Part shown: positions 13,205 to 61,485 of the stretch, piece by piece
Layout of the letters: every line of letters starts with the position of its first letter
Numbering within the stretch: the first letter of the stretch is position 1
Assembly: GCF_016097555.1 (NCBI RefSeq)
Contig: NC_054712.1
Span: forward strand, 50,525,794 to 50,589,793
Length of the DNA: 64,000 nucleotides
Source of the DNA: Gigantopelta aegis
Lineage: Eukaryota; Mollusca; Gastropoda; Neomphalida; Peltospiridae
Direction: 5' to 3'
Position numbers and translations under genes: made by a program
Notes under the pieces: generated by a model
What the model saw: the letters and a program-made list of their open reading frames with translations, nothing else
Databases searched by the model: none
Told to the model about the DNA's origin: nothing

Positions 13205-14055
13205 TGTAACTAAAGGGCCAAACACTTGTCAATCTACAGATCATATACGATCTGTAACAAGTCATATACTTATATAGTGATATCTAACAGGACATATATT
13301 GTAACTAAAGGGCCAAACACTTGTCAATCTACAGATCATATACGAGTCTGTAACAAGTCATATACTTATATAGTGATATCTAAGAGGTCATATATTGTAA
13401 CTAAAGGGCCAAACACTTGTCAATCTACAGATCATATACGAGTCTGTAACAAGTCATATACTTATATAGTGATATCTAACAGGACATATATTGTAACTAA
13501 AGGGCCAAACACTTGTCAATCTACAGATCATATACGAGTCTGTAACAAGTCATATACTTATATAGTGATATCTAACAGGTCATATATTGTAACTAAAGGG
13601 CCAAACACTTGTCAATCTACAGATCATATACGAGTCTGTAACAAGTCATATACTTATATAGTGATATCTAACAGGACATATATTGTAACTAAAGGGCCAA
13701 ACACTTGTCAATCTACAGATCACATACGAGTCTGTAACAAGTCATATACTTATATAGTGATATCTAACAGGTCATATATTGTAACTAAAGGGCCAAACAC
13801 TTGTCAATCTACAGGTCATATACGAGTCTGTAACAAGTCATATACTTATATAGTGATATCTAACAGGTCATATATTGTAACTAAAGGGCCAAACACTTGT
13901 CAATCTACAGTTGATATACGAGTCTGTAACAAGTCATATACTTATATAGTGATATCTAACAGGTTATATATTGTAACTACAGTGACATACACTTGTCAAC
14001 CTACAGGTCATATACGAGTCTGTAACAAGTCATGTACTTATATAGTGATATATAA
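13205..14055. repeat. 96-bp satellite array 1, about 9 units
   Basis: Unit: CTAAAGGGCCAAACACTTGT, CAATCTACAGATCATATACG, AGTCTGTAACAAGTCATATA, CTTATATAGTGATATCTAAC and AGGTCATATATTGTAA. The length is a multiple of three, so one frame stays open for 277 codons; this is a by-product. Inside each unit are four related 21-28-bp subunits built on (T)AACAGGTCATATA. Confidence 0.93.
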
Positions 14056-14290
14056 CTAGTTAATATTTTTATCCCGCAGTCCATAAAAATTAAGGGGAAA
14101 AGCTATTATTTCTGTTATTTTAGCTACATTGTATGATGACCTTGAGGTCAAATGAGCGATTTTGTAATGTAGCTATGCATGTGATATCACATGGGTGACA
14201 TGAAAAGTGATAATCTGCTAGTATACGTTTATGACTTTGCTTTAATCGGTCAATAGGAACGGTGGTTGCAGGATAAAGTGACATACAAAG

Positions 14291-15004: not shown

Positions 15005-15116
15005 AATGAACTGAAATGTTAATGAAGTCATACAGTTGTAACTAGCAGGCCATGTATTAGTAATTAACATGCCATACATTGGAAATTAAACATCAATATG
15101 TTAACAACTAACAGGC

Positions 15117-16071
15117 CATCCATTGTAACTAAAGGGCCAAACACTTGTCAATCTACAGATCACATACGAGTCTGTAACAAGTCATATACTTATATAGTGA
15201 TATCTAACAGGACATATATTGTAACTAAAGGGCCAAACACTTGTCAATCTACAGATCATATACGAGTCTGTAACAAGTCATATACTTATATAGTGATATC
15301 TAACAGGTCATATATTGTAACTAAAGGGCCAAACACTTGTCAATCTACAGATCATATACGAGTCTGTAACAAGTCATATACTTATATAGTGATATCTAAC
15401 AGGTCATATATTGTAACTAAAGGGCCAAACACTTGTCAATCTACAGATCATATACGAGTCTGTAACAAGTCATATACTTATATAGTGATATCTAACAGGA
15501 CATATATTGTAACTAAAGGGCCAAACACTTGTCAATCTACAGATCATATACGAGTCTGTAACAAGTCATATACTGATATAGTGATATCTAACAGGTCATA
15601 TATTGTAACTAAAGGGCCAAACACTTGTCAATCTACAGATCATATACGAGTCTGTAACAAGTCATATACTTATATAGTGATATCTAACAGGTCATATATT
15701 GTAACTAAAGGGCCAAACACTTGTCAATCTACAGATCATATACGAGTCTGTAACAAGTCATATACTTATATAGTGATATCTAACAGGACATATATTGTAA
15801 CTAAAGGGCCAAACACTTGTCAATCTACAGATCATATACGATCTGTAACAAGTCATATACTTATATAGTGATTTCTAAGAGGTCATATATTGTAACTACA
15901 GTGACATACACTTGTCAATCTACAGATCATATACGAGTCTGTAACAAGTCATATACTTATATAGTGATATCTAACAGGTCATATATTGTAACTACAGTGA
16001 CATACACTTGTCAACCTACAGGTCATATACGAGTCTGTAACAAGTCATGTACTTATATAGTGATATATAAC
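15117..16071. repeat. 96-bp satellite array 2, about 10 units
   Basis: Same unit as array 1 with one more copy. Unit variants (GGACAT/GGTCAT, GATCAC/GATCAT) occur in both arrays. Confidence 0.93.
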
Positions 16072-17219: not shown

Positions 17220-20200
17220 CTACTCAAAAGAATTTAAGGGTCAAAAATTTATAACCAAATAAGTTTCAGAGTGTATTAGATTGATGATGTAAACTACACC
17301 AAACTTTTTATTTATTGTTCCATATTTACAAAAAACCACAAATAAACGTCACTGTATACAAGAAAGTCACATGACATGCTGTCAAAGTTGAAGGTTGTCA
17401 AACATGGATTTTACACATTAGAACATTCGTTTAATAGTGTGTGAATCCACCCCTGGTGCGAATACACTCGACACATCGTTGCCTCATGCTGTTGATCAGA
17501 CGTCTGAAGAACTCTTGGGGAATGGCCTGCCACTCTGCCATAAGAAGTTGACCCAGATCATGAAGGTTGGCCGGAGGGGCATGGTTATCCCGAACTCTCC
17601 TGCCTAATTCGTCCCAGGCGTTCTCTATTGGGGCCAAGTCAGGCGAATATGCTGGCCAATCCATCCTGGCGATACCTTGTTGTCTGAGAAAGTTCGTTAC
17701 CACCCTGGCGCATGGGGTCTGGCATTGTCATCCTGCAGAACTGCCCCGCCGCCAATCTGCTGAAGGCCTGGGAGAACCAACGGCCGGATAATCTCATTCA
17801 GATAGCGGATTCCATTCAGATTGCCATCCACCACATAGAGGGGGGTCCTGTGGTGGATAGAGATGCCGCCCCACACCATGACGCTGCCACCACCGAACCG
17901 GTGACATTGTCTAACGTTAACGTCAGCGAAGCACTCCCCAGGATGTCTGTAGACACGAACCCGACCGTCGTTGAACTGAAGACTAAACCTGGACTCATCA
18001 GTGAACATCACTTGACCCCACTGAACACGTTGCCACCGCAGATGAAGCGTGCACCAGTGACGTCTGGCCGTTCTGTGACGTGGTAGGAGTGGTGGTCGAA
18101 CAGCCTGGCGACGGTAGCGTAGATTATTGACTCTCAGACAATTGCGTATGGTTTGATCAGACACTCGAGTTCCAGTCGCAGTCCGCAGATTGTCACGTAA
18201 TCGGCGTGCAGTGGTTGTGCGTTGACGTAGAGCCATATTGGTGATGTAGCGATCCTCTCTATTTGTAGTGCTTCGGGGTCTTCCCGAACGTGGATGATTT
18301 CGAACAGAATTCGTTGCTTGGTACCGTTGCCACAGTCGGCCAACGACACTCTGACTGACACCAAGTCTCAGAGCAACATTTCTTTGCGTATTGCCATCCT
18401 GAAGCCAAGCAATAGCCCTTCCTCGATCTTCGATAGTCAGTTGAAGTCGTACCATTATCGAATTTGGAGTGTGCACCATACATGAATGCAAGCTCCAATT
18501 ATACGGAAATTCAGCATTGGGAACATGGAATACACGTGCAAAGCATGCAAATGAAGCGCTTTGTGAAAAAGCAAGTTATGGGCACTTAGCAGACCTTTCG
18601 CTTTCGCCCTAATTTACGTGCAAATGTAAGCATGTTTTCGCCATTAGAACTAGTCGACAGTGTCAATGACAGTGGATTTTATTTCATTTATGGGTTGCTT
18701 AGACCCACTTTCGTCAAAATGGAACAATACCATGCGTGACATTATGGTCTAGCTAATATAATTGACATTCAGAAAATAATGTCGAAAATATCGTCTGACC
18801 CTTAAATTCTTTTGAGTAGTATATATCATTAAAGGGACTGTCCTGAGTTTGCAGCCATTGTAAGATGTTTGCGATAACAGAGCCTTGTTGGTGACTACTA
18901 TTTCATACTCAATACGTTTTCTTGTTCACAATACCAGTGTCTGTATATCAAATCTGTTTCCTTTTGTATACTAATGTTTGTAGCACTCAGTTTTTACTTT
19001 AATTCGTGATATATATTTTTTCATATGTACAAAATTATTGGGAGGTAATATCCAGCCTGGGCTACTACAAGCATTAGGATAACAACAAACACCTTGTAAA
19101 TACAGACACTGATATTCTAAATAAGAAAATGTATTTAATCTGTATGTTACGTCATCAAAAAGGCTCTATTGGTCGGAAACATTTTACAATGGTTGTAAAT
19201 TCAGGACTGTCCCTTTAAACCACTTTTTGAAAATAATAAAATTAAGTTTAAAATAAATTATCATTTTCATTTAACTTTGTGCATTTAGACTTTAACACAA
19301 TGTGCCTTTCGAGAAATTGGCTTCCCAAACTGAGACCACACTCAATGGGAAACTAGTAATAGACATCATTTGCATATGATCAAGATTAGCAACAAAAATA
19401 TTTGTTTTATTTAACAACACCACTAGAGCAAATTGATTAATTAATCATCGGCTGTTGGATGTCAGACACTTGGTAATTCCGACACGTAGTCTTCAGAGAA
19501 ATCCTGCAACATTTTTCCAGTAGTAGCAAGGAATCTTTTAAATGCTCTTTTCAAGAGACAAGACAGCACATACCACAGCCTTTGATACACAACTTGTTGG
19601 CCATTGATTGTGACGGGAAAAATCCAGGTGGGTCTGAATTTCAATCATTCAATCCATCCTTACACTGGTTTTACGTGAATATATATAAATAATATTTCCA
19701 TATACTTACCATTTGTGACACCCAATAGCCGATATGTATTTTTGTGCTGGGGTGTCGTTAAACAAACATTCATTCATTCAATCCAAGCATATCAGGTGAA
19801 TGATCTATGTACCGAGCAGGATCGAACCACCTCGGTGGATCCATTCAAATGATTGGGGTTTTTTTTCTTGTTCCAATCAAGGAGCGGGATGTAGCCCAGT
19901 GGTACAGCGCTCGCTCGATGTGCGGTCGGTGTGGGATCGATCCCCATCGGTGGGCCCACTGGGCTATTTCTCGTTCCAGCCAGTGCACCACGACTGGTAT
20001 ATCAAAGGCTGTGGTATATACTACCCTGTTTGTGGGATGGTGCATATCAAAGATCCCTTGCTGCTAATCAAAAAGAGTAGCCCGTAAAGTGGTGACAGCG
20101 GGTTTCCTCTCTCAATATCTATGTGGTCCTTAATCATATGTCTGACACCATATAAGTGTAAATAAAATGTGTTGAGTGCGTTGTTAAATAAAACATTTCT

Positions 20201-38092: not shown

Positions 38093-41000
38093 CTAGTCGT
38101 CGGATGGTTTTTTCGGTACATCTGCATCTTTTGGTTCATCCATATCTATTCTGATACCTGGAAAATAAACCAGTAATTATTTTAATTAATGGGATGATTA
38201 TTTTTTTTTAAGGAATTAATTCAATAAATGTCTGCATAAAATGTCCTGGACGAAGGAGCCGGCGTAAGTTGACACCTGTGCCCATGACAGGCGTGCGCTA
38301 CAACAGCTTGCTCTGAATGTGCATGTTAAGCCCTATGACCTGACCTCACCTGAAGCCACAGAAATTCAGGTGCAATGGTTAAGCGATTGGGTTTAATGAG
38401 CACTTGTAGGTACTTGTGTAGTGCTCCATATTATGCTTCCCACCAATTACATTATAGGGCTATGAGACACAGAGGGAAAAAAAAGTTGAATGTGTTGAAT
38501 GCAATACATACAATGGCATGATTGGGCATCCATGTTCAGCAATGGAATTAAGATGCTATTTTACTTTATTCCTTAGTCTTATTATCATCCAGTGTAAGTG
38601 GTGGGTACTCCGATCTGGGTCGAGTTTGACCCTCGAGTACTAGAGTCCAATATTTTGGACTCGTGGAGGCCCAAGTAGGTGCTGGGTTCATATCCCAATG
38701 CTAGTCCACTGGGTGCATATCTCAGTTATAAGACTAACTACACCAACTTATCTTTCATTCTAAGTTATGTGTTGTTTTATGACACCGTTAGACCACATTA
38801 TTTATTAACCATCAGCTTTTGAATGTCAAACGTTTGGTAATTCTGACATACAGTAGTCTCCTGAGGAAACTTGTCTCATTTTCCCCATTAGAGGCAAGGT
38901 TTTAATGCACTCTCCCACAGACAGGACAGCACATACCATATCATTTGTGAGGCACTGGTTGGGATGGGGAAAAACCCAGTTGGAGAATTGGTCCACTGAG
39001 GGATTTCGATCCTTCGACCCAAGCACCTCATGCAAAAACTCTACCAAATGAGGTAAATCCTGTCCCCTTTCACCAACCCATGAGCAGTGCAAGCTTTAAA
39101 AGGAAGGAAGGAAATGTTTTATTTAACGACACACTCAACACATTTATTTACGCTTATATGGTTAAGGACCACACAGATACTGAAGGAGGAAACCCGCTGT
39201 CACCACTTCATGGGCTACTCTTTCCGATTAGCAGCAAGGGATATTTTATATGCACCATCCCACAGACAGGGTAGTACATACCATGGCCTTTGATATGCCA
39301 GTCATGGTGCATTGGCTGGAATGAGAAATAGCCCAATGGACCCACTGACAGGGATCAATCCCAGACTGACTGCGAACCAAGCGAGTGCTTTACCAATGGG
39401 CTATGTCCTGCTTCCTTGCTTGAAAAGTTTACAAATTATTGTTCTATATGTATAATATAATCTATTTGTCTTACATTTCTATATATTTTAAAGTTACATT
39501 TAAAGAAACGAAAGCTACACTGGACAAAAAATCTGAAAACCTTTGCATGTTCATGATAAAGAGGGTTTTGTGTCAAGCTTTTCATCCAGAGGATTCATTT
39601 CTGCATGTAGAGCTTATGAAGATATTTTATAAATTACATACCAGTAATATAGTAAATGCTAAAATGTGAAATGCATATATGTAAGAACTTACCAAGAAAT
39701 GTTGGAAATCTAGGATGCCCTCCATTGGTATACTCTTGAAATTTGTAGGTTATGATTGATCCGATCTTCGGGGGTTTCCGTCTGTTGGCATCAGTCAGTC
39801 TGCAATTGTAATCAGTTGTCATATTTTTACAGGTTTACAAAGATAACTGGTTCATCTCTTTTGTAGTCATTGGTGTACATGTATGCGAATTGACTTGTTA
39901 AACATTTAGTGGGAGATTGGGGTGGAATTACACTTATGAGGTGGTGCAGTGGTTAAACCATCGGACTACAGGCTGGTAGTACAGCGTTTGCAGCCTGGTA
40001 CCGGCTCCAACCCAGAGCAAGTTCTTAAGGGCTCAATGGGTAGGTGTACGGCCACTACACCCTGTTCTCTCTCACTAACCACTAACCAACTAACAACTAA
40101 CCCACTGTCCTGATCAAATTTTTATTTTTTATTTTTAATTACCCTGATTTCCATGTGCACTATATTAACCCTGGCAATAAAGTGGAGCAATCAGGCGGCA
40201 ATGCTGTGGATACTGCCATGGTAGTTTCAAGTGTCCACAACACTATATTAACCCTGGCAATAAAGTGGAGCAATCAGTCGGCAATGCTGTGGTAGTTTCA
40301 AGTGTACACAGCACTATATTAACCCTGGCAATAAAGTGGAGCAATCAGGCGGCAATGCTGTGGATACTGCCATGGTAGTTTCAAGTGTCCACAACACTAT
40401 ATTAACCCTGGCAATAAAGTGGAGCAATCAGTCGGCAATGCTGTGGTAGTTTCAAGTGTACACAGCACTATATTAACCCTGGCAATAAAGTGGAGCAATC
40501 AGGCGGCAATGCTGTGGATACTGCCTTGGTAGTTTCAAGTGTACACAACATTTAGTTTTTTGTGGAACTTTCAATTTTTTATGTCGCTTTTTATTATTCA
40601 TTTATGTCACTTTTCTTAATTAATTATTCATTAATGTCACTTTTTTTAATTATCTGTTAAACGTTTTGCAATACAGACAAAGTAAACTTCTCTCTTGCAT
40701 GTTAAAGGGACATTCCTGAGTTTGCTGCAATTTTTAAGATGTTATCGACTAATAAAGACTTTTTAACGACTGTAATTACATGTACATATCAAATATATAT
40801 TTTTTCTGCATAAAATATTAGTGGCTGTATATTAAACGTGTTTCTGATCGTTCCAATATTTGTACTAGGTTAAATTTCATTTTATTTCCTAAAATATATT
40901 TTTTCGTACGTATGAAATTATTTGAAGACAAAATCCAGCTTGGATTTCTTACAAATATTAAGACGATCAGAAACGCATTCAATATACAGACACTGATATT

Positions 41001-44000
41001 CTAAGCAAGAAACTATATTTAATATATAAGTTTAATCATAGAAATATTTTATTAGTCGGAAACTCAGGAATGTCCCTTTAACTGCAAAACTGCTGTAGAG
41101 ACAATTTTTTAATGGCATTCTTTTTGCTGTGGCCACTTTCTTAATTATTGCCATTGTTGCTGTTTGTATATTATATGTACTAACAAAACAAACGTTCGAG
41201 AAACCAATCACATAGTAGCAAGTAATGAACCCACTTCTTGAATACCCTGCCTTTAAAGGGACATGCCTGTGTTTTGCTGCATTGTAAGATCAAATATTTC
41301 TACCATTAAACTTACATATTAAATATATTTTCTTGTTTAGAATATCAGTGTCTGTATATTCAATGTGTTTCTGGTCGTCTTAATATTTGTAAGAAGCCCA
41401 AACTAGATTTTGTTTTCAAATAATTTTGTTAGTATGAAAAAAAAAAAATCTTCTAGGAAATGAAATGAAATTTAACCTAGTACAAATATTAGAACGATCA
41501 GAAACACGTTTAATATACAGCCACTAATATTTTATGCAGAAAAATATATTTGATAGGTAATTAGAATCGTTAAAAAGTCTCTGTTAGTTGATAACATCTT
41601 AAAAATTGCAGCAAACTCTGGAATGTCCCATTAAGAATACAATGTATTTGAAGGATCTGCCGTAAAACATTCTGTCTGACCCGTAAACTGATCAACTCCC
41701 TAGTTTGGGTGATCAACTCCCTAGTTTGGGTGATCAACTCCCTAGCGTGGGATTCGGTTGCACAAATATATCTTTGTTTGAGGTGATAAACCATTAATCA
41801 AGGAATAATATTCTAAATTTGCAATTAGGTCTATACTTTCAAAATGTCAGCAGTTTGATACTTGTCACAATATTTCTTCCAAATGAATTTTTTTATAAAT
41901 TATATTTACCCTGAACCGACTTTAAACTCCATTCCATTTGCCATCTTGCACCTGAGAGCCCCTGTACAGAACTGGTTTTTACCCTTGCCTTTCTCATGAC
42001 CTATGACCCTGGCCTGAAATAGAAAAACACTGGTAAAGAAGAATTCTGCAGAATTAGATGTATACATCAACTATCATAATCTTATTCAGCATCACTGATA
42101 GTTGCATCCTTAGATCTTCATCTCCATGCATGTAAAAAAAAGAAAAAGAATTCAATTAAAATTTCATTTTAATAAATTATTTTAATAAATAATTTTTTTG
42201 GTTCATCATGCTTTTGGATGAACATTTGTAGATGTAACTAAGGTCAACGACAGTCACTTTTCGGACCCTTGTTTTAGCTTTATGTACAATAAATGTAAGT
42301 AACATATCCAATGGTAATATTTTGATATGATATATTTGACAAAAGGTACTTTTTATTTCTTTCATCTTTTAAAACTTAATATTTTGTGCAGAATTATGAA
42401 AAATAAAAACATACCGACTTGTAAACAGCGTTGTCCGCTTGTTATAAAATTTCGACAGGGGTCAAGGTTTGTAGACCAGTTTTTATTTTAATGTGACGAA
42501 ACATTATAATAATATAGCTAATTTCCAATGAAGTCACTTTGCATCTCCTTACAATAACCATAAACCAAGTACATGACGTTTCCGTTTTCAGAACGCTGCA
42601 AAGTCCAATGCAAAATTGCTATTGAAATATTTTTGTTCGAACATTACTAATGCACCTGAATGTGTTTGAAGAAAATCTTGTGATTAACAAATTGTACCTT
42701 TTGTGAAATATGGATTTCAAGTGAAATTACAATAAGATATGTTTTATTTATTGTGTACGAAACAAGGGTGCAAAAAGTGACTGTCGTCTACCTTAAAAAC
42801 CAAGTTTCTTTGATGTAGGACTTGTAGTTTGTGAGAAATGGAGCTAAAAAACGAAAAGAGTTTGTTTCGTTTAATGACACTACTGGAGCACATTGATTAA
42901 TTAATCATCTGCTATTGGATGTCAAACATTTGGTAATTCTGACTCGTAATCATCAGAGGAAACCTGCTAATTTGTTTCCTAATGCAGAAAGCGATCTTTT
43001 ATATGCACTTTCCCACAGACAGGAAAGCACATACCACGGCCTTTGTCCAGTTGTGGTGCACTGGTTGGAACGAGAAAAACCCCAATAAGCTGAATGGGTG
43101 CACCAAGGTGGTTCGATCCTGCAACGCGAACACTCGACCAACTGAGCTAAATCCTTCCCCTGTATGGAGATAAATGCCAAAACTTTAATACTGAGCTGAT
43201 CACAAAAATTGATGTGCAGTTGCCTCCACCGAGGCAATACTACCAGGGGCCTCCACCGAGGCAACACTACCAGGGACCTCCACCGAGGCAACACTACCAG
43301 GGGCCTCCACCGAGGCAATACTACCAGGGGCCTCCAGCGAGACAATACTACCAGGGGCCTCCAGCGAGACAATACTACCAGGGGCCTCCACCGAGGCAAT
43401 ACTACCAGGGGCCTCCACCGAGGCAATACTACCAGGGGCCTCCACCGAGGCAATACTACCAGGGGCCTCCACTGAGGCAATACCACTAAGTAATATATAC
43501 GTCTTGTGAACCTTTTTACTTTGTAAAAGTGAGACAAAAACAATTTAACACATAAATATTTTCTCAGCATTTCTTACCTCAGCATCATAAAACTTCTTTA
43601 TCTTGAGCAGTGTGCGAGATCTGGTTCTCTCATACTTCGACTTGGGTTGACGGATCATCAAGCCCTCTCCGCCAAGCTTGATCATTTTCTTCAGCTCGGC
43701 ATCAAGTTGAGCTTTCCCGGTGCACTTGGTTTGCTCACACAGATGTGCAAACTTTGGCCTATAGAAAACCCCCCAGAAAAATGTCAATATATAGTGTTCA
43801 AGCTGGATGCCAAAAATTAACAGCAATTTGGCAAATTTGATCAGAAATTTTGTAGCTAAATTCAAGTGACATTTAGTTAAACAGAGATATTTTAAAAACA
43901 GCTATACACTTACAAACAACACAATTTTTTTAATTAGCTTTTTGGCAAATTGATAATGACATATTGGCTATTTGATGTCAAACATTTGATTATAATTTCT

Positions 44001-47000
44001 ATTAGCAGCAAGGAATCCTTTATATGCATTTCCCCACAATCAGGACAGCGCATATCACAGCCTTTAATATACCAGTTGCGGGGCACTGGTTGGGATGGAA
44101 AAAAAACCCAGTCGGATAATAAATCCACTGAGAGGGTTTGATCCTGCGATACCAGCACATCAGGTGAGCGCTCTATGGACTGGGTCAGATCCCACCCCTG
44201 GCTATGAAAGACACTTTGTATAAAAAAAAGCTTTCTTACTTGTGTTTATCGGAATAATCCTTCAGTTGTTCGTATCGCTTTTCAAATGGTTCTTTTTCCA
44301 GACTTGGGCTGTCGAAGACCTGAAGAAAAGAAGATGAGAGATTCCTGAACTATAGGGGATCAATTCTGGCCTACTGGTTTTACATTACTTCTGTCACACA
44401 TCTGTTAACTCCAGAAAAGAAACAAAACTAACGTTAATCACAAATGGAAAAAGAAAAAAAGAAGTGTTTTATTTAACAACACACTTAATCACAAATGGCT
44501 TACTTATTTTTATTACATTTATACTTTCATAAACATATATGTCACTTTGCTTTAGGTTACTTAAGACTTTTATTACATCTCAAATGAACATATTTCTAAA
44601 AAAATTATATTACTTCAATTTTATCGTTTAGATTATCCAGTTCCATACATCCAAAGTCTTTTTGGTCGTCCTGATTTTTCCAATACCATGGAATGGATTT
44701 TTCATATTTTCAGAAATGCACGTACCTCTGAGAAGTAGTGGTTATAGAGACAAGCTCTAGTCTATATTTTAAGGATATTTCGCATTCCCCGTTTCAACGT
44801 CACATAGTCTTGTTTCACTCAATGTAACATTATCCAAATGTGTTGCAGGTTTGTATATTACCCAAACTTAGTGTCGATTTTTATGGATCAAAACTAGGGT
44901 CTGTTACTTTAAAATATTAGTTAAAAGTTTGTTTTGTTTAACGACTCCACTAGAGCACATTCATTTATTAATCATCAGATATTGGATGTCAAATATTGGG
45001 TAATTTTGACTATGACTATAGTCTTAGAAAGGAAACCAGCTATATTTTTCAGTTAGTAGCAAGTGATCTTTTATATGCACAATCCATAAACAGGATAGTA
45101 CATACCACAGCCTTTGATATACTAGTCAGTGAGAAATAGCCCAGTTGGCCTATCAACAGGAATCAGGCGAGGGCTTTACCACTGGGAATAATGTAACATT
45201 TTCAACACACCTCGTATTTAATTTTCTTCCATCGTTCATCCTCTGGTGTCTTCACGATGCTCACAGTTGACTGAAACTGTCCTCTTCCACCAAAGAGTTC
45301 TCCATCGAGGTGCATATCTGTTGGGAGGTCTTTCGTAAACCATTCGGGCGCGATGAAAGCATTGCCAAGCCGAGAGTAGAAACATCTATGAATAACAAAG
45401 ATCAACAGTTAAAATCTAGTTTGTCAATTTAATCAACATCACTGAATGTAGTACAAATTGTGTGCCTTATTAACTTGAAGTTGATCTCATTGGAATGGGT
45501 AATTATAGAGTTTGCAAATTAAATCAACTCAAATAAATAATGGGTTTCTTTAGCACTAAACTGTGTCAACAACATATTAAAATCTTGATTATTATAGTTC
45601 ATAGCATGTATACATTAAATGTTGATGTCACAGTACAAAAAATAAGAGATTAAAAATGTAATCATTGGTTAACTATAAAATATTCAGATTATTTTCTCCA
45701 AAATTTTACATCTTTGTCCAACTTACTCGAAAGGAAAGTTATAGCTATGACCGTTATTAATCATGTTGTGGATTATGACACTGAATTCACCGACACAAGA
45801 GAATAACAAACTAACCTTCCATTCCAAAACGCTCGCACTCCATCCAACTTTTCACTAATCCACCAGCCTGTTGGGTCATTAGCTCTGTAGAAGAAAAAGA
45901 AAATAATCTCTTACTTTCTTCAAGTAATATGTTTTCAGTTATTTGTCATTTGGAGAATGATATGATTTTGAGTAATTAAAAAAAAACTAGCAAAAGGAAA
46001 GAAAAGGAAAGGTTAATTAAAAAAAAAAAATGTATCACAACAGTGACCTCTTATTTTCTTATACTAATAAGTATACATGTAAAGCTGTGTTAAGCAGCCA
46101 ATTAAAGGGACAAACACTAGTTTCAGCCTATGAAAGTTAACATTACAAACCTGTAACACATTTGGATAAAGTTACAACTGAGTGAAACAAGTGTCTATGA
46201 CTTTAAAATGGTGAAATACCCTCTAAAAATAGACTAAAACTCGACTCAATAGCTGTTACTTCTCAGACACACGTGCGTTTTTTAAAATATGAGAAATGCA
46301 TTTTGTGATATTAAAAACACCAGGATGACCAAAATACTTTGAATGTATGGAAATGGATAATCTAAACAATAAAAAATCTTAAGTAAAGTATGATTTCAGT
46401 TATCAAAAATGGCTCTAAGTGTTTAAAAACTAGGGTATGTCCCTTTAAGAGATTAATAAATCAATGTGCTCTAGTGGTGTCGTTAACCAAAACAAACTTT
46501 TAAATATTTTACTCATTGAGAAACTTACTTCTCGTCGTACTTGTGAGCCAGCAGTAAGCTGACAGCGATGTGAGATTTGAAAGACCTGTTGGGTTTCGGT
46601 TCGTCGAGTTCGCACCGATACCGCTCAAACTCGGACCCGAGATAATCCTTGAGGTGTTTACATGTCCGTTTGTTGTACGGGTTTCTCTGTGCATGCCAGC
46701 CTTTACACCTGCAACAGACACAACACATTCTAGTCAACTATAATAATTTAGAAGACGACACCAGTCTAGGATCTCGGCAACTGACATTTTAAAAAATAAC
46801 ATATATACAAACTTTATAGTGAGTGTATATCAACCAGACAGAATTATCCTATGCTCATAAACAAAGATATGGGTTGGGGCGGTTGGGGAATATGTAAGAT
46901 TGTTGTAGGGGATAATAAGAAAGGTGCATGTTCATTCAGGATTGGGTGAGGGTATGTCATGTCATAGGGTTTTACGTGCACATTCAGAACAATCTGTTGT

Positions 47001-50000
47001 AGCGCATGCCTGTCGTGGGCACAAGAGCCGGCCTTGGCCGGCTCCTCCGTCCATGATAGGAAAGGTGGGGGGAGGGGAGAGGAGGGACCGCCTGCACTGG
47101 CAGATGCAAGGGAGCACCAGCAGCCCGATCAAATCGGTAGCAGGCGGGTGGTGGTGGTGGTGGTGCTATGGAATTTTAATGGAGTAGTTAAATGCCAAAG
47201 AGAAAAGGGTGCGAAATTTTGATCGAGGGAATTTGGCGCAATTTTGAACGGTCGGTCGAAAGGTAAATGGCCGGTGAGGGTAGACTGGTGAGTGATGTTT
47301 ATAGTGGGGTTCTGGTCATGCTCCCCTGGAAAATATATTTGAAAAAAATGAAATTCACTTAGATCATGAAAAAAAGAAAAGAAATAAATTTAAAAAGAAA
47401 TAACTAAAAAATAAAATAAGTTTTATTTATTTTTTAAATAATAATAATAAAAAATTAAACAAAGTTTAACTTAAGTTTAAGTTAAAGTGTTATAATGTTA
47501 CAGTTAAATTAAATTATTAAATAATATTATTAATAATAAAAATTATATAAGCAAAGGCAACAATCCACTGTAATGTAAAATGTTTCATTAAGAAAAAACC
47601 CACCCCGAAAACCCATAAAAACGTGTATATTTGAAATTTGAGATATAACAGAATTAAAAAGACTTTTTTCAGATATAACAATAAAGCTTACGAGCAAGTA
47701 TAACTGTCGTCTTCTCTCTTGATGGTTACTCCCCCGTCGAACTTCACTGTGTCTCCCGGTTTCATCTCATTCAGCGGCTTCTTACTCTGAGACCTCGTTT
47801 TCAGTGAGTCCGCATCTTCAGCTGGGAACACAGTTTAAAGTTTGTGTCATTTAACGACACCACTAGAGCACACTGATTAATCATTCGTCAGCTGTTGCAT
47901 GTCAAACATTTAGTACTTCTGACATAATTTATAGACTTTAAAATTCATTTTGTTTAATGACATCACTAGAGCAAAACGTTTTTTAAAGTTTGTTTTGTTT
48001 AACAACACCACTAAAGCACATTGATTTATTAATCATCGGCTATTGGATGTCAAACATTTGGAGGAAAGCAGTTATATTTTCCCACTGTCCAGCTCAGATT
48101 TGTAGGAACAATATCTGGAATGGAGGGACTCGATCTCTAATATTGAGGGTACCAAAGCTTTCGTTTGGGGGGAGGGGGGGGGCGGAGGAGGGGCACAAGC
48201 CATTTTTTTAAAATCTATATTCATATAAAGCAGGACAAACAAAAATCATATGTTAACAACCATGTGTAACCAAAAATAACAACATTGGGCTATTTCTCAC
48301 TCCAGCCAGTGCACCACGACTGGTACCGTACATCAAAGGCCGTGGTATGTGCTATGCTTTCTGGGATGGTGCTTATAAAAAATCCCTTGCTGCCAATCGA
48401 AAAGAGTAACCATAAAGTGGCGACAGCGGGTTTCCTCCTTCAATATCTGTGTGGTCCTTAACCATATGTCTGACGCCATATAACCGAAAATAATGCATGG
48501 TGTTCTCACCAACGGGTGTGTAAGAAAAGTATATAAAATAAAAATATATACAAATGATCCCTGTTGTGATGAAATATCTTACCTTCATCTGCGTCCGAAT
48601 CATCGGGGTGACAGAATTCTTTGATGTGCTGTTTTTCTTTACGGAAACACTTGTCCCAGTACTTGCATTTAATCCGCCTCGGTCGGCTACCTTCACCTTT
48701 AGAATCATCTGTCGATTTGTCTGTCGTTTTATCCGTATCGTTTTTAGCAGGTTTCTTCTCTGGTGTGGAAGTAGCTTTCGGGTCAGGTTTAATCTTCTTG
48801 GTTGGTGAGGAGTCGGTTTCATCCTGTAAGGTGAGAATGAGAATTCAATGAACTGATTCCTACTGGAAGGAAGGAAGGAAGGAAGAAAGGAAATGTTTTA
48901 TTTAACGACGCACTCAACACATTTTATTTACGGTTATATGGCATCGAACATATGGTTACGGATGACACAGATATTGAGAGAGGAAACCCGCTGTCACCAC
49001 TTCATGGCTACTCTTTTTCATTAGCAGCAAGGGATCTTTTATATGCACCATCCCACAGACAGGATAGCACATACCCAGTGTTCGAGATTAACAGTATCCC
49101 GATATCCCGGGGATACCAGAATTTAATTTTGGATACCAGACTTGAAGAACCCAGTATCCCACCGGGATACCATATAATGTTTTTTTTTTTAATCCTGTGT
49201 TTTTATTTTTCGCTAAACAATGAAAGTCGTCATTTACTGGTGAAGTTAAGTAACAGTATTTTCGAGTTCGTACACAGTCTAATGCTATGCCATAACAAGA
49301 TCTCCGCCAACTTATACCCAGTATAATGCTACACTGAAGCAATAGTGGCGTTGTAATAGACTGGGAATGAAAACAGTGTCGTCCAAGTTTGTTATGATGT
49401 TATTTATGAATTTCATTAAAGTGGGATACTAAATTCTCAGGTAGGATGCCACATTTTTAAATGTTATTATCCAACTGGGATACTGCCCAAATTTTTTAAT
49501 CTCGAACACTGACAGCGACCTTTGTTGCACCAGTTTTGAAGCACTGGCAGGAACAAGAAATAGATCGATCGTGCATCAGGCTATTCCTACAGTGTTTGCT
49601 TTTTAGTTTCTTTCAGGGGCGACACGTAGCCCAGTGATAAAAGTGCTCATCTGATGTGCAGTCAGTCTGGGATCGATTCCCATCGGTGGGCCCATTAGGT
49701 TATTTCTCATTCCAGCCAGTGCACCACGACTGGTATATCAAAGGCTATGGTATGTGCTATCCTGTCTGTGGGATGGTGGGATGGTGCATATAAAAGATCC
49801 CTTGCTACTTATGGAAAAACATACCAGGTTTTTTCTCTAAGATTATATGTCAAAATTACCAAATGTTTGACATCTAATAGCTGATGATTAATTAATCAAT
49901 GTGCTCTAGTGGTGTCATTAAACAAAAACTTTAACTTATTTACACTGTGTATTACCTCATCATCACTCTGACTCATTGCGTGGGCCATTCTCTTGGCAGC

Positions 50001-51150
50001 GTTTTTCTTCGCAGCTTTTGTCGGACTGCTAGTGTCCATGGCTTCATCACTGGCCTGGTACGACATTAAGATACACAATGTTGTAATTATAAATTATAAA
50101 GTATCACCATTTTGGTCACAGTCACAATAAAAAGTTCAAATAATTTATGAAAAATTTGGGTTAATAAGTCAATGTGTAAAGTGAAAAGAACACTAACAGG
50201 ATTACAGATCAAGGTGAATAATTTATAGATTGAGATAAATTATTTTCATATATATTTTTCATACAGTGAAACAATTAACATATGTTAGATATTTAATAAT
50301 TTTATATTTTAAAATATACCAGGTTGTTAATTAAACAAAACAACAACAACAACCACCTCCCCCCCAACCCCCCCCCCCCAAAAAAAAACCCTAACATTAT
50401 TGTATATTTTGAAATATACACTTGTCTCTTAATTAATTTTAAAAAACAAAATGAATCACAAATTTTCCAACTTCAGCACAAATGATCCATGAAAAAAGTG
50501 GTTTAGCTCTAGAGACAGATATTAAATAATTATTGCAAGGAAAAAATACCCCAGAACACTCCTCGAAAAAACTCCATCCCTTTCTTTCTTTCTTTTAAAT
50601 TATTTCCGTGCTTATATCCAATTAAGGTTCAAACATGCTGTCCTAGGCACACACCTCAACTATCTGGGCTGTCTGTCCAGGACAGTGGGTTAGTTGTTAG
50701 TGGTTAGTGAGAAAGAAGAGGGAATAGTAGTCTTGCACCTACCCATTGAGTTGTTAAAAATTGCTCTGGGTGGGAGCCGGTACCAGTGAACCCTATACCT
50801 ACCATCTGATGGCCTAACCACATCACCGAGGCCGGTCCATATCCCAAAATGGTTTTAGACCACGACACCACCAAGGCCGGTCCATATCCCAAAATGGTTT
50901 TAGCAGTCAAGGGGAGACAAATCATACTAACTAGCTGTATATTTACCTGTTTTGACAGTTTCCCTCTCGATTCTCCCATCATCACTGTCGGTTTGACATA
51001 CTCCTCCTCCTCCTCCTCCTCATCGCTACTGGCCTTAGCCTTAACCGTGTCATCTTCCGGGTGAAGAAACTGTTTTCTGTGGGCGGGGTTATTGCGAAAA
51101 CACTTGTCCCAGTATTTGCATTTGGGCTTTTTTGTAGAATCTGCAGACAT
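38093..51150 (-). CDS. PBZ-PBZ-SWIM-ATP-dependent DNA ligase, 12 coding exons
   Basis: Exons: 50947-51150, 49956-50054, 48583-48823, 47692-47821, 46529-46708, 45816-45884, 45211-45385, 44240-44319, 43578-43758, 41910-42013, 39693-39799, 38093-38157. All introns are GT-AG with matching phases; 1635 bp, 544 aa. Two PBZ fingers (C11-C17-H24-H30 and C154-C160-H167-H173, both C-x5-C-x6-H-x5-H) flank a low-complexity acidic/basic linker. A SWIM finger follows (C224-S-C226, C241-K-H243). The ligase nucleotidyltransferase has motif I EKLDGVRAFW (catalytic Lys297), motif III LDGELFGGRGQF (Glu337), IIIa VFDSP (367), IV GGEGLMIR (422-429) and V LLKIKKF. The OB fold runs from about 454 to KPPKIGSIITYKFQ and GGHPRFPTFLG (516-524). 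The catalytic part resembles compact bacterial LigE-type ligases rather than LIG1/3/4. Inferred role: sealing nicks at poly(ADP-ribose)-marked damage. No signal peptide is seen; basic stretches (KKNAAKR, RPRRIK) could direct it to the nucleus. Confidence 0.93.
38240..38345 (-). repeat. Dispersed repeat copy (TGCACATTCAGAACA family)
   Basis: CCCATGACAGGCGTGCGCTA, TGCTCTGAATGTGCATGTTA. In ligase intron 11. Confidence 0.6.
38760..39062 (-). repeat. SINE head B, tail 2, minus strand, diverged
   Basis: TGTTGTTTTATGACACCGTT to CCAAATGAGGTAAATCCTGT. Confidence 0.75.
39098..39418 (-). repeat. SINE head A, tail 1, minus strand
   Basis: GGAAGGAAGGAAATGTTTTA to CCAATGGGCTATGTCCTGC; all parts present. 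Confidence 0.85.
39945..40135 (+). repeat. Head-C-like SINE with alternative body
   Basis: GGTGCAGTGGTTAAACCATC head, CTCAATGGGTAGGTGTACGG, CTCTCACTAACCACTAACCA. In ligase intron 10. Confidence 0.7.
40158..40552. repeat. Tandem repeat with alternating long and short units, 5 copies
   Basis: Units start CACTATATTAACCCTGGCAA, then AGTGGAGCAATCAG. Long units carry GTGGATACTGCCATGG and short ones lack GATACTGCCATG. The order is long-short-long-short-long, a dimeric higher-order repeat. Confidence 0.92.
40702..41081. mobile_element. TTAA-flanked short element, family 2
   Basis: TTAAAGGGACATTCCTGAGT at the left, AACTCAGGAATGTCCCTTTA at the right. In ligase intron 10. Confidence 0.9.
41253..41634. 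mobile_element. TTAA-flanked short element, family 2, diverged
   Basis: TTAAAGGGACATGCCTGTGT left and CTCTGGAATGTCCCATTAA right. The interior is partly the reverse of the 40702 copy. Confidence 0.85.
41688..41752. repeat. 21-bp tandem repeat, 3 copies
   Basis: GATCAACTCCCTAGTTTGGGT repeated, the third copy diverged. Confidence 0.9.
42014..42850. other. Ligase intron 9, unannotated part
   Basis: AT-rich; no repeat recognised. It contains two short blocks about 520 bp apart that mirror each other (AAAAAGTGACTGTCGT at 42775 and ACGACAGTCACTTTTC at 42247), an imperfect inverted pair. Confidence 0.45.
42855..43166 (-). repeat. SINE head B, tail 2, minus strand
   Basis: AGTTTGTTTCGTTTAATGAC to CAACTGAGCTAAATCCTTCC, with B box GGTTCGATCCTGC. 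Confidence 0.85.
43222..43488. repeat. 27-bp minisatellite, about 10 copies
   Basis: Unit CCTCCACCGAGGCAATACTA + CCAGGGG. 27 is a multiple of three, so it stays open in several frames on both strands (for example PPPRQYYQG). It lies between ligase exons 9 and 10, with no splice sites around it. Confidence 0.93.
43960..44207 (-). repeat. SINE head B-type, minus strand, partial
   Basis: GGCTATTTGATGTCAAACAT to GGGTCAGATCCCACCCC; tail end missing. Confidence 0.7.
44590..44912. mobile_element. TTAA element family 1, left end degraded
   Basis: GCACGTACCTCTGAGAAGTA interior and AAACTAGGGTCTGTTACTTT right end. Confidence 0.7.
44930..45190 (-). repeat. SINE head A, tail 2, minus strand
   Basis: AAAGTTTGTTTTGTTTAACG to GGGCTTTACCACTGGGA; internal deletions in the head. 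Confidence 0.75.
46102..46448. mobile_element. TTAA-flanked short element, family 1
   Basis: TTAAAGGGACAAACACTAGT left and ACTAGGGTATGTCCCTTTAA right. In ligase intron 5. Confidence 0.88.
46449..46503 (+). repeat. SINE tail 2 fragment
   Basis: AATCAATGTGCTCTAGTGGT, GTCGTTAACCAAAACAAAC. The TTAA element at 46102-46448 directly abuts it, so the element probably inserted into a SINE tail. Confidence 0.7.
46955..47290 (+). repeat. Dispersed repeat (TGCACATTCAGAACA family), longest copy
   Basis: TTTTACGTGCACATTCAGAA, GTAGCGCATGCCTGTCGTGG, CCGGCCTTGGCCGGC, then a (GGT)n stretch. In ligase intron 4. Copies at 2655, 7795 and 38240 are reversed. Confidence 0.65.
47835..48075 (-). repeat. Three partial SINE tail-2 copies in a row, minus strand
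   Basis: TTTGTGTCATTTAACGACAC (47838), CATTTTGTTTAATGACATCA (47945) and AGTTTGTTTTGTTTAACAAC (47985), each followed by CACTAGAGCA or CACTAAAGCA. Confidence 0.75.
48284..48510 (+). repeat. SINE body and tail 1, head truncated
   Basis: TTGGGCTATTTCTCACTCCA to TGTCTGACGCCATATAACCG. Confidence 0.78.
48864..49580 (-). repeat. SINE head A, tail 1, minus strand, split by a short element
   Basis: GAAGGAAGGAAGGAAGAAAG and AAATGTTTTATTTAACGACG to CACATACC at 49076, resuming ACAGCGACCTTTGTTGCACC at 49512 to about 49580. Confidence 0.8.
49077..49511. mobile_element. Short TIR element with CAGTGTTCGAGATTAA ends
   Basis: CAGTGTTCGAGATTAACAGT at the left and TTAATCTCGAACACTG at the right, about 435 bp, inside a SINE. 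The interior contains repeated GGGATAC / GTATCCC words. The CAGTG terminus is hAT-like, but no 8-bp target duplication is evident. Confidence 0.7.
49613..49935 (+). repeat. SINE head A, tail 2
   Basis: GGGGCGACACGTAGCCCAGT, GGGATCGATTCCC, a small local duplication (GGGATGGTGGGATGGTGCAT), tail GGTGTCATTAAACAAAAACT. It ends just before ligase exon 2. Confidence 0.85.
50590..50840 (-). repeat. Head-C-like SINE with alternative body, minus strand
   Basis: CTTATATCCAATTAAGGTTC, CAGGACAGTGGGTTAGTTGT, CACCTACCCATTGAG, then GATGGCCTAACCACATCACC. In ligase intron 1. A short direct repeat GGCCGGTCCATATCCCAAAA (50831, 50875) follows. Confidence 0.78.
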
Positions 51151-60008: not shown

Positions 60009-60325
60009 TTTATAGACAAAATATTTTAGACATGTCACGTATGCAAAGGTAGCGCTTGACAAAATTAGCAACCTCTCTCGATGGTAAGTCTGGAATTACC
60101 CGAGTTTAAAAACAGAAAGAAAATAAAAGAACCCAATCAAGTTTAGCGTATTGGTTGATGTCTGTATTTGCAGGGTAGTACACACCACAATATTAGTATA
60201 ACCAGTGTTGATTATTCCCTGTAGGTTGTGCTCATGACGGGTGAGACCGGTGGGGCAGGATATGCTCACCTGTCGCGAACCCCTGATGTCTAAGCTAGTC
60301 CTGGTCGTGGTAGTCATCTTACGGG

Positions 60326-61095
60326 CGGGGGCGGGACGTCCCCCAGTGGTAAAGCGCTCGCCTGACGCACGGTCTGTCTGGGATCGATGCCTGTCGGTGG
60401 GCCCATTGGGCTATTTCTCGTTCCTGGCGGGACGTCGCCAGTGGTAAAGCGCTCGCCTGATGCACGGTCTGTCTGGAATTGATGCCTGTCGGTGGGCCCA
60501 TTGGGCTATTTCTCGTTCCTGGGCGGGACGTCGCCAGTGGTAAAGCGCTCGCCTGATGCACGGTCTGTCTGGAATTGATGCCTGTCGGTGGGCCCATTGG
60601 GCTATTTCTCGTTCCTGGCGGGACGTCCCCCAGTGGTAAAGCGCTCGCCTGATGCACGGTCTGTCTGGAATTGATGCCTGTCGGTGGGCCCATTGGGCTA
60701 TTTCTCGTTCCTGGCGGGACGTCCCCCAGTGGTAAAGCGCTCGCCTGACGCACGGTCTGTCTGGAATTGATGCCTGTCGGTGGGCCCATTGGGCTATTTC
60801 TCGTTCCTGGCGGGACGTCCCCCAGTGGTAAAGCGCTCGCCTGACGCACGGTCTGTCTGGAATTGATGCCTGTCGGTGGGCCCATTGGGCTATTTCTCGT
60901 TCCTGGCGGGACGTCCCCCAGTGGTAAAGCGCTCGCCTGACGCACGGTCTGTCTGGAATTGATGCCTGTCGGTGGGCCCATTGGGCTATTTCTCGTTCCT
61001 GGCGGGACGTCCCCCAGTGGTAAAGCGCTCGCCTGACGCACGGTCTGTCTGGAATTGATGCCTGTCGGTGGGCCCATTGGGCTATTTCTCGTTCC
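60326..61095 (+). repeat. Tandem array of a SINE head, about 95-97 bp unit, 8 copies
   Basis: Each unit is head A: GGCGGGACGTCCCCCAGTGG, TAAAGCGCTCGCCTGACGCA, CTGGAATTGATGCCTGTCGG and ending CATTGGGCTATTTCTCGTTC, immediately followed by the next head. The last unit runs into a complete SINE (61096-61485). The 252-codon open frame on the minus strand is a by-product. Confidence 0.93.
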
Positions 61096-61485
61096 TGGGC
61101 GGGACGTAGCCCAATCTCATTAAAATCAGATCCACTGGCCTGTACTATAGCGGAGCTGATTTTAATCAGATTGGATGTAGCCCATTGGTAAAGTGCTCGC
61201 TTGATGTGCGGTCAGTTTGGGATCGATCCCCGTCTATGGGCCCATTGGGCTTTTCTCGTTGCAGCCAATGCACCACGACTGGTATATCAAAGGCCGTGGT
61301 ATGTGCTATCATATCTGTAGGATGGTGCATATAAAAGATCCCTTGCTACTAATGGAAAAATGTAGCGGGTTTTCTCTCCAAGACTATATGTCGAAATTAC
61401 TAAAATGTTTGACATCCAATAGCCGATGATTAATAAATCAATGTGCTCTATTGGTGTCGTTAAACAAAACAAACTTCAACAAACG
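61096..61485 (+). repeat. SINE head A, tail 2, with 60-bp palindromic insertion
   Basis: GGGCGGGACGTAGCCCA, insertion 61113-61172, then GGATGTAGCCCATTGGTAAA through the body to GTGTCGTTAAACAAAACAAA. Confidence 0.88.
61113..61172. mobile_element. 60-bp palindromic mini-element inside the SINE head
   Basis: AATCTCATTAAAATCAGATCC and GGAGCTGATTTTAATCAGATT pair over 21 bp (19 matches) with an 18-bp loop. The flanks repeat GGA(C/T)GTAGCCCA, consistent with a target-site duplication. Confidence 0.75.

Follow-up and report, generated by a model that had tools for sequence, protein, structure and literature searches.

A predicted DNA ligase E of the gastropod Gigantopelta aegis with two N-terminal PBZ fingers and a SWIM-like finger common to many bacterial ligases

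Reports of DNA ligase E (Lig E, also ligase K) exist for a small number of animals, among which are molluscs and an annelid, some of the proteins bearing an N-terminal PBZ finger (passages on animals in PMC6264785 and PMC10665377). The 2018 text describes the occurrence of Lig E/K in Metazoa as sporadic and places PBZ generally on the N-terminal side, and the legend of its Figure 5 refers to domain models of the Capitella, Lottia and Aplysia proteins (PMC6264785). In Nicolas et al. (2023) the family is named ligase E; Saccoglossus, Lottia, Biomphalaria and Capitella are listed, and an N-terminal PBZ is mentioned for three other animal species, unnamed at that place (PMC10665377). According to the sections of that paper devoted to bdelloid rotifers, AvLigE-A and AvLigE-B combine the Lig E core with one or two PBZ fingers and are damage-induced; the rotifer enzyme is nuclear and radiation-inducible, extracts depleted of it ligate less, it raises the radiation tolerance of human cells, and ligation activity was shown for AvLigE-B (PMC10665377). 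The PBZ fingers of AvLigE-A and AvLigE-B (set among PST-rich repeats) and of the Mortierella protein MvLigE are there described as C-terminal, whereas those of the Gigantopelta protein are N-terminal (PMC10665377). Dictyostelium DNA ligase III, from the part of its description that concerns domains, also carries a domain that reads ADP-ribose, but it is of the LIG3 type and has a macrodomain in place of PBZ (PMC8529158). The Lig E family, its presence in animals and the combination of PBZ with a Lig E core are already known. The preliminary description of the present locus knew of no characterised animal protein with this order of domains; given the published reports of PBZ with Lig E and of N-terminal PBZ in animals, as summarised above, this holds only in that the assayed rotifer protein has its PBZ at the C-terminus (PMC10665377).

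The gene lies in a window of 64,000 nucleotides (the whole stretch of Gigantopelta aegis DNA that was analysed), situated 50.5 Mb into contig C14. The coding strand is the minus strand, from 51150 to 38093. Splicing at the exon ends proposed in the preliminary description reproduced its model exactly: 12 exons with consistent phases, separated by 11 introns that are all GT-AG, yield 1,635 bases encoding 544 residues with a single, terminal stop. The exons are as follows (window positions):

Exon 1, 50947..51150, minus strand: start codon, PBZ finger 1 (residues 8-33, window 51052-51129) and acidic linker
Exon 2, 49956..50054, minus strand: linker with a basic patch
Exon 3, 48583..48823, minus strand: linker and PBZ finger 2 (residues 151-176, window 48599-48676)
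Exon 4, 47692..47821, minus strand: start of the SWIM-like region, with putative zinc ligand C224
Exon 5, 46529..46708, minus strand: SWIM-like putative zinc ligands C226, C241 and H243, then linker to the ligase
Exon 6, 45816..45884, minus strand: ligase motif I KLDGVR, with the predicted AMP-accepting K297
Exon 7, 45211..45385, minus strand: LDGELFGGRG motif
Exon 8, 44240..44319, minus strand: VFDSP motif, ligase domain
Exon 9, 43578..43758, minus strand: GGEGLMIR and LLKIKKF motifs
Exon 10, 41910..42013, minus strand: start of the OB domain (PF14743)
Exon 11, 39693..39799, minus strand: OB domain as far as RFPTFLG
Exon 12, 38093..38157, minus strand: C-terminal tail and stop codon

The encoded order is PBZ, PBZ, a SWIM-like CxCx14CxH finger, the ligase domain and the OB domain. 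All of these except the SWIM-like finger scored above the Pfam cut-offs. The order proposed earlier is right as far as tested, SWIM being its weakest label. Elsewhere in the window, a 292-aa open frame on the minus strand (17697-18575) has, by eye, the look of a Tc1/mariner-type transposase; the long open frames at 13214-14059, 15068-15868 and 60319-61211 consist of tandem repeat units and are likely repeat arrays, not genes.

The ligase domain model PF01068 matched residues 288-447 (44.4 bits, cut-off 26.2; E 2e-11) and the OB-like domain model PF14743 residues 461-526 (93.5 bits, cut-off 28; E 7.8e-27). The curated NCBIfam equivalog model PRK09125 gave 316.7 bits (cut-off 200), by which the predicted protein is a DNA ligase E. 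The best PDB matches were 4d05, 8u6x and 6gdr, which we take to be structures of bacterial Lig E; none of the 19 PDB matches was named DNA ligase 1, 3 or 4, and a new LIG1, LIG3 or LIG4 paralogue was rejected because these matches point elsewhere. The stand-alone Lig E enzymes have the same catalytic core and OB fold, but their chains (258-297 residues) match the animal protein from residue 269 onwards and not its fingers; enzymes of this stand-alone group are exported to the periplasm. The same ligase and PF14743 OB core is also present in the animal Lig E/LigK proteins of Lottia, Aplysia, Biomphalaria, Capitella and Saccoglossus. The ligase signatures listed in the preliminary description proved conserved when set against 80 bacterial proteins: KLDGVR, with K297, is kept in all 80, LDGE in 79-80, the EG and the R of EGLMIR likewise in 79-80, and LLK.K of LLKIKKF in 77-79, the sixth position of the last motif being variable.

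Between PBZ2 and the ligase domain lies a finger of the form CSC-x14-CKH (residues 224-243), which is interrupted by intron 4 and would bind zinc through C224, C226, C241 and H243. With the full-length protein, the Pfam SWIM model PF04434 gave no match at E 0.1; on the isolated region it reached 16.5 bits (E 0.0062), under the gathering cut-off of 19.6. When three bacterial relatives were compared with the same model, two scored 9.6 and 10.3 bits and one gave no match. The bacterial relatives came from a scan of a prokaryote genome collection, which returned at least 592 stretches, at least 563 of them encoding relatives; the best 80 (L091-L170) were used. Planctomycetota host 42 of these, Myxococcota 19 and Verrucomicrobiota 5, the rest belonging to other groups. 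The identity of these proteins to the animal one is 38-51% in the best tblastn piece (80 loci) and does not exceed 53% in the columns used for the tree. All four SWIM-like ligands stand before the ligase, in the columns of the query, in 79 of these best 80 of at least 563 relatives, a figure that is not a prevalence, since the search sequence included the finger and the set was restricted to the top matches. The 80th, L169, starts at the end of its contig; in L160 the motif search matched a different stretch, and the alignment still shows the four ligands. As judged from these alignments, the animal protein shares its SWIM-like finger with a SWIM-ligase unit widespread in bacteria. The finger probably helps hold DNA.

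A unit of the same kind was found in a phage. In a tblastn search of phage records with the part of the protein from the SWIM-like finger to the end, one record, LR745208.1 (485 kb), aligned over 94% of the query with 39.8% identity. This record is an uncultured (huge) phage in which the SWIM-Lig E gene occupies L010:2486-3529, the finger preceding the ligase; the 6,020 bases fetched as L010 are identical in IMG/VR locus L018. Bacterial SWIM-Lig E and the phage protein have the SWIM-like finger, ligase and OB in the same arrangement as the animal protein. When viral contigs were scanned with the single protein, one distant ligase was returned; a scan with the alignment returned 193 relatives, of which 80 were kept, one of them (L018) being the L010 sequence. 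By eye, none of twelve other viral-contig relatives that were translated has such a finger before the ligase. What is new here is that the SWIM-like finger of this predicted animal Lig E is common to many bacterial ligases. The published main texts on animal Lig E/LigK make no mention of SWIM, whereas the Gigantopelta protein has the SWIM-like finger; neither the word SWIM nor the word WGR occurs in the main text of PMC6264785 or PMC10665377. A literature search returned no relevant paper on a ligase that combines SWIM either with PBZ or with WGR, on a SWIM ligase of Planctomycetes, or on a ligase together with bacterial PARP and WGR.

WGR is a break-sensing domain of PARP1-3. Among the 81 relatives scanned with Pfam (the best 80 bacterial proteins and the phage protein), 48 contain it; the domain is N-terminal in L118 and L155 but C-terminal in L091. 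Nine Pfam families were found in these 81, and PBZ is not one of them. The animal protein has PBZ and lacks WGR. No WGR was found in six Lig E-like controls, two from plasmids (L180 and L181) and four from viral contigs (L011, L014, L016 and L017). One bacterial locus, L142 (2968-5892, a Thermoanaerobaculia MAG), holds a single frame of 975 residues in which a SWIM-like finger, Lig E and WGR are joined to the regulatory and catalytic domains of PARP. PARP had no match in the other 148 of the 149 genomes of that phylum searched, nor in the other five of six genomes with SWIM-Lig E. A recurring Lig E-PARP fusion was accordingly rejected, the one positive genome in each set being the same. A conserved operon around the bacterial genes was likewise rejected: in the 83 of 191 flanking ORFs that were scanned, no family occurred in more than three, and among 25 listed of the 103 families flanking bacterial SWIM-Lig E there was no obvious repair gene.

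All nine protein matches to the animal Lig E in the 1.15-Gb genome (exons 4-12) fell at one locus, as did both matches to PF14743 (exons 10 and 11). Lig E is a single-copy gene in this assembly, a second copy being ruled out because the matches are exons of the single locus only. LIG3 was recognised in the same genome by a match to PDB entry 3l2p (E 8.1e-53), and LIG1-like and LIG4-like exons by PF01068 and by reading of motifs by eye. The earlier proposal of a fourth animal ligase is borne out in that four ligase types are present in the genome, as far as tested, but not in that the fourth would be of an unknown family, since it is Lig E. Three further ligase-like matches at C627:62895-63396 and C4056:5001-5123, two of them with internal stop codons, may be pseudogenes derived from LIG1- and LIG3-like genes, or else other haplotypes of these. 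The LIG3 locus itself contains a PBZ exon (G000:C15:14953757-14953831, L194; E 5.1e-11), placed between the LIG3 core exons (OB part) and a LIG3_BRCT-like exon, the latter with 18.9 bits, under the cut-off of 27. On this evidence, a PBZ exon seems to be included in the LIG3 gene, after the OB and before the BRCT part, and the contrast drawn earlier between the PBZ fingers of the new ligase and the zinc finger of LIG3 is weaker than was stated. At C9:20504532-20504738 a tandem PBZ pair is followed by an acidic stretch and is APLF-like by eye; in view of this exon, the suggestion that recruitment would run without APLF is not supported. Single PBZ fingers were also seen at C6:67672765, C4101:5855 and C4:86123821. 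The PARP catalytic domain gave 48 matches across the genome (each exon counted by itself, some with internal stops), so that PAR is likely made in this animal.

Both PBZ fingers of the ligase were recognised by PF10283 above its curated cut-off (two matches; protein E 4.9e-17), and their exons also stood out, with E 3.4e-8 and 3.2e-6, when all 1.15 Gb of the genome were searched in six frames. PBZ2 aligns with the APLF PBZ structures 2kqb and 2kuo. APLF likewise has PBZ fingers, but its pair is close together while the Gigantopelta fingers are spaced by about 117 residues; and APLF, unlike the Gigantopelta protein, is not known to have a ligase domain. The match to the Lig E model, the best PDB matches, the conserved ligase residues, the alignment of PBZ2 with APLF structures, the PARP matches in the genome and the properties of the rotifer relative favour, with a probability of roughly 0.8, the reading that this is an animal Lig E in which the core seals nicks and the two N-terminal PBZ fingers bring the enzyme to PAR. 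In such a scheme, PARPs would mark a break with poly(ADP-ribose), the PBZ fingers would bind the PAR and keep the enzyme at the break, and the SWIM-like finger together with the core would grip the nicked DNA. K297 would then be adenylylated by ATP and the AMP moved to the 5'-phosphate, the nick being sealed as in other Lig E enzymes. The proposed chemistry is supported by the strict conservation of the catalytic residues and by the known enzymes of the family, and we infer PAR-guided recruitment from the PBZ fold alone. Enzyme activity, PAR binding, contact of the SWIM-like finger with DNA and a nuclear location are predictions made from the protein sequence; basic patches in the linker, noted by eye, would suit nuclear import.

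In both fingers every zinc ligand is kept, as are the Arg and the first of the aromatic residues, yet each departs from the consensus at two positions: Trp stands at the Gly position after the aromatic residue, where the consensus printed in the relevant part of PMC4030884 has Gly, and the Tyr preceding the Arg is replaced by Phe. With Trp for Gly and Phe for Tyr in both fingers, their affinity for PAR may be low. The wide spacing of the fingers, unlike that of the APLF pair, and the SWIM score under the Pfam cut-off also count against the favoured reading. The same substitutions, and the finding that the bacterial relatives have SWIM and often WGR while PBZ was not found in the 81 scanned, would also suit a protein with an active Lig E core whose PBZ-like fingers have no useful PAR binding and serve as nucleic acid or protein binders, or are relics; the enzyme would then reach breaks through the SWIM-like finger and the core. 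This seems unlikely, though it is the strongest of the alternatives, since the residues just named as kept are those of a PBZ finger, both matches exceed the Pfam cut-off, and the same Phe occurs in the PBZ of another gene of this genome.

The reading of a PBZ-guided ligase also depends on the PBZ exons being joined to those of the ligase. Aligned bacterial proteins span eight of the 11 exon junctions, from 4/5 to 11/12, seven of which are ungapped in 71-80 of the 80 rows; at junction 5/6 no row is ungapped and every one has small gaps, at least seven residues being held in 80 of 80. No row among the 80 bacterial relatives aligns at junctions 1/2 and 2/3, and at junction 3/4, where 21 of 80 rows are ungapped, the stretch is without similarity (14 of 322 letters identical). 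The three junctions that would connect PBZ to ligase thus lack backing from the bacterial relatives, and exons 1-4 encode a good deal of low-complexity linker, as might be expected if the PBZ exons formed a gene or transcript of their own, the ligase beginning at exon 4 or at an unseen exon. Such an arrangement is nevertheless very improbable, given that exons 1-3 lie on the same strand as the rest with consistent phases and GT-AG introns, that one open frame runs from the PBZ exons into the ligase, and that N-terminal PBZ has been published for animal Lig E/K (passages in PMC6264785 and PMC10665377); it is on splice signals, reading frame and that published precedent that the predicted PBZ-to-ligase junctions rest. 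A gene in decay, or bacterial DNA contaminating the assembly, might be suggested by the sporadic occurrence of Lig E/K in Metazoa (described in part of PMC6264785) and by the long animal branch in the tree (1.56). This is the least probable reading of all and is contradicted by the data: the frame stays open over 12 exons with 11 introns, the key catalytic residues are intact, and the locus lies deep within a long contig. Four of the introns carry copies of a repeat with 14 sites in the window (chance expectation 0), which argues against bacterial contamination.

The relation of the animal protein to the bacterial ones was examined in a tree whose 89 rows, all retained, comprised the query, 80 bacterial proteins, the phage protein L010, three ligases from plasmids and four from viral contigs. 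The query was placed inside a 32-row set to which Myxococcota contribute 19, with support of 87/83, which is not firm, the bootstrap being unsettled. In AU tests, neither a position of the query outside all sampled bacterial SWIM-Lig E (p-AU 0.417) nor one with query and phage both outside (p-AU 0.199) was rejected. The Myxococcota-rich set was for these reasons not named as the donor. The query, the one animal Lig E sequence in the tree, has a long branch. Within these bounds, it may tentatively be proposed, with the odds somewhat against it, that animal Lig E came from a stand-alone bacterial SWIM-ligase of a kind often fused to WGR, and in one case to a complete PARP, and that WGR was lost and PBZ took its place. 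If this were true, direct sensing of breaks would have been traded for the reading of PAR made by the host's PARPs, and the tie between this ligase and the ADP-ribose pathway would predate the gene found in animals.

The Gigantopelta locus adds one well-resolved gene to a little-studied family of animal ligases, and raises the question of whether PBZ does in animals the job of WGR in bacteria. The parts most worth following are the link to SWIM and WGR in bacteria and the PBZ exon of LIG3. Taken together with the macrodomain of Dictyostelium ligase III, as presented in part of PMC8529158, the PBZ at the LIG3 locus suggests that the reading of ADP-ribose by DNA ligases may be broader than vertebrate biology would indicate.
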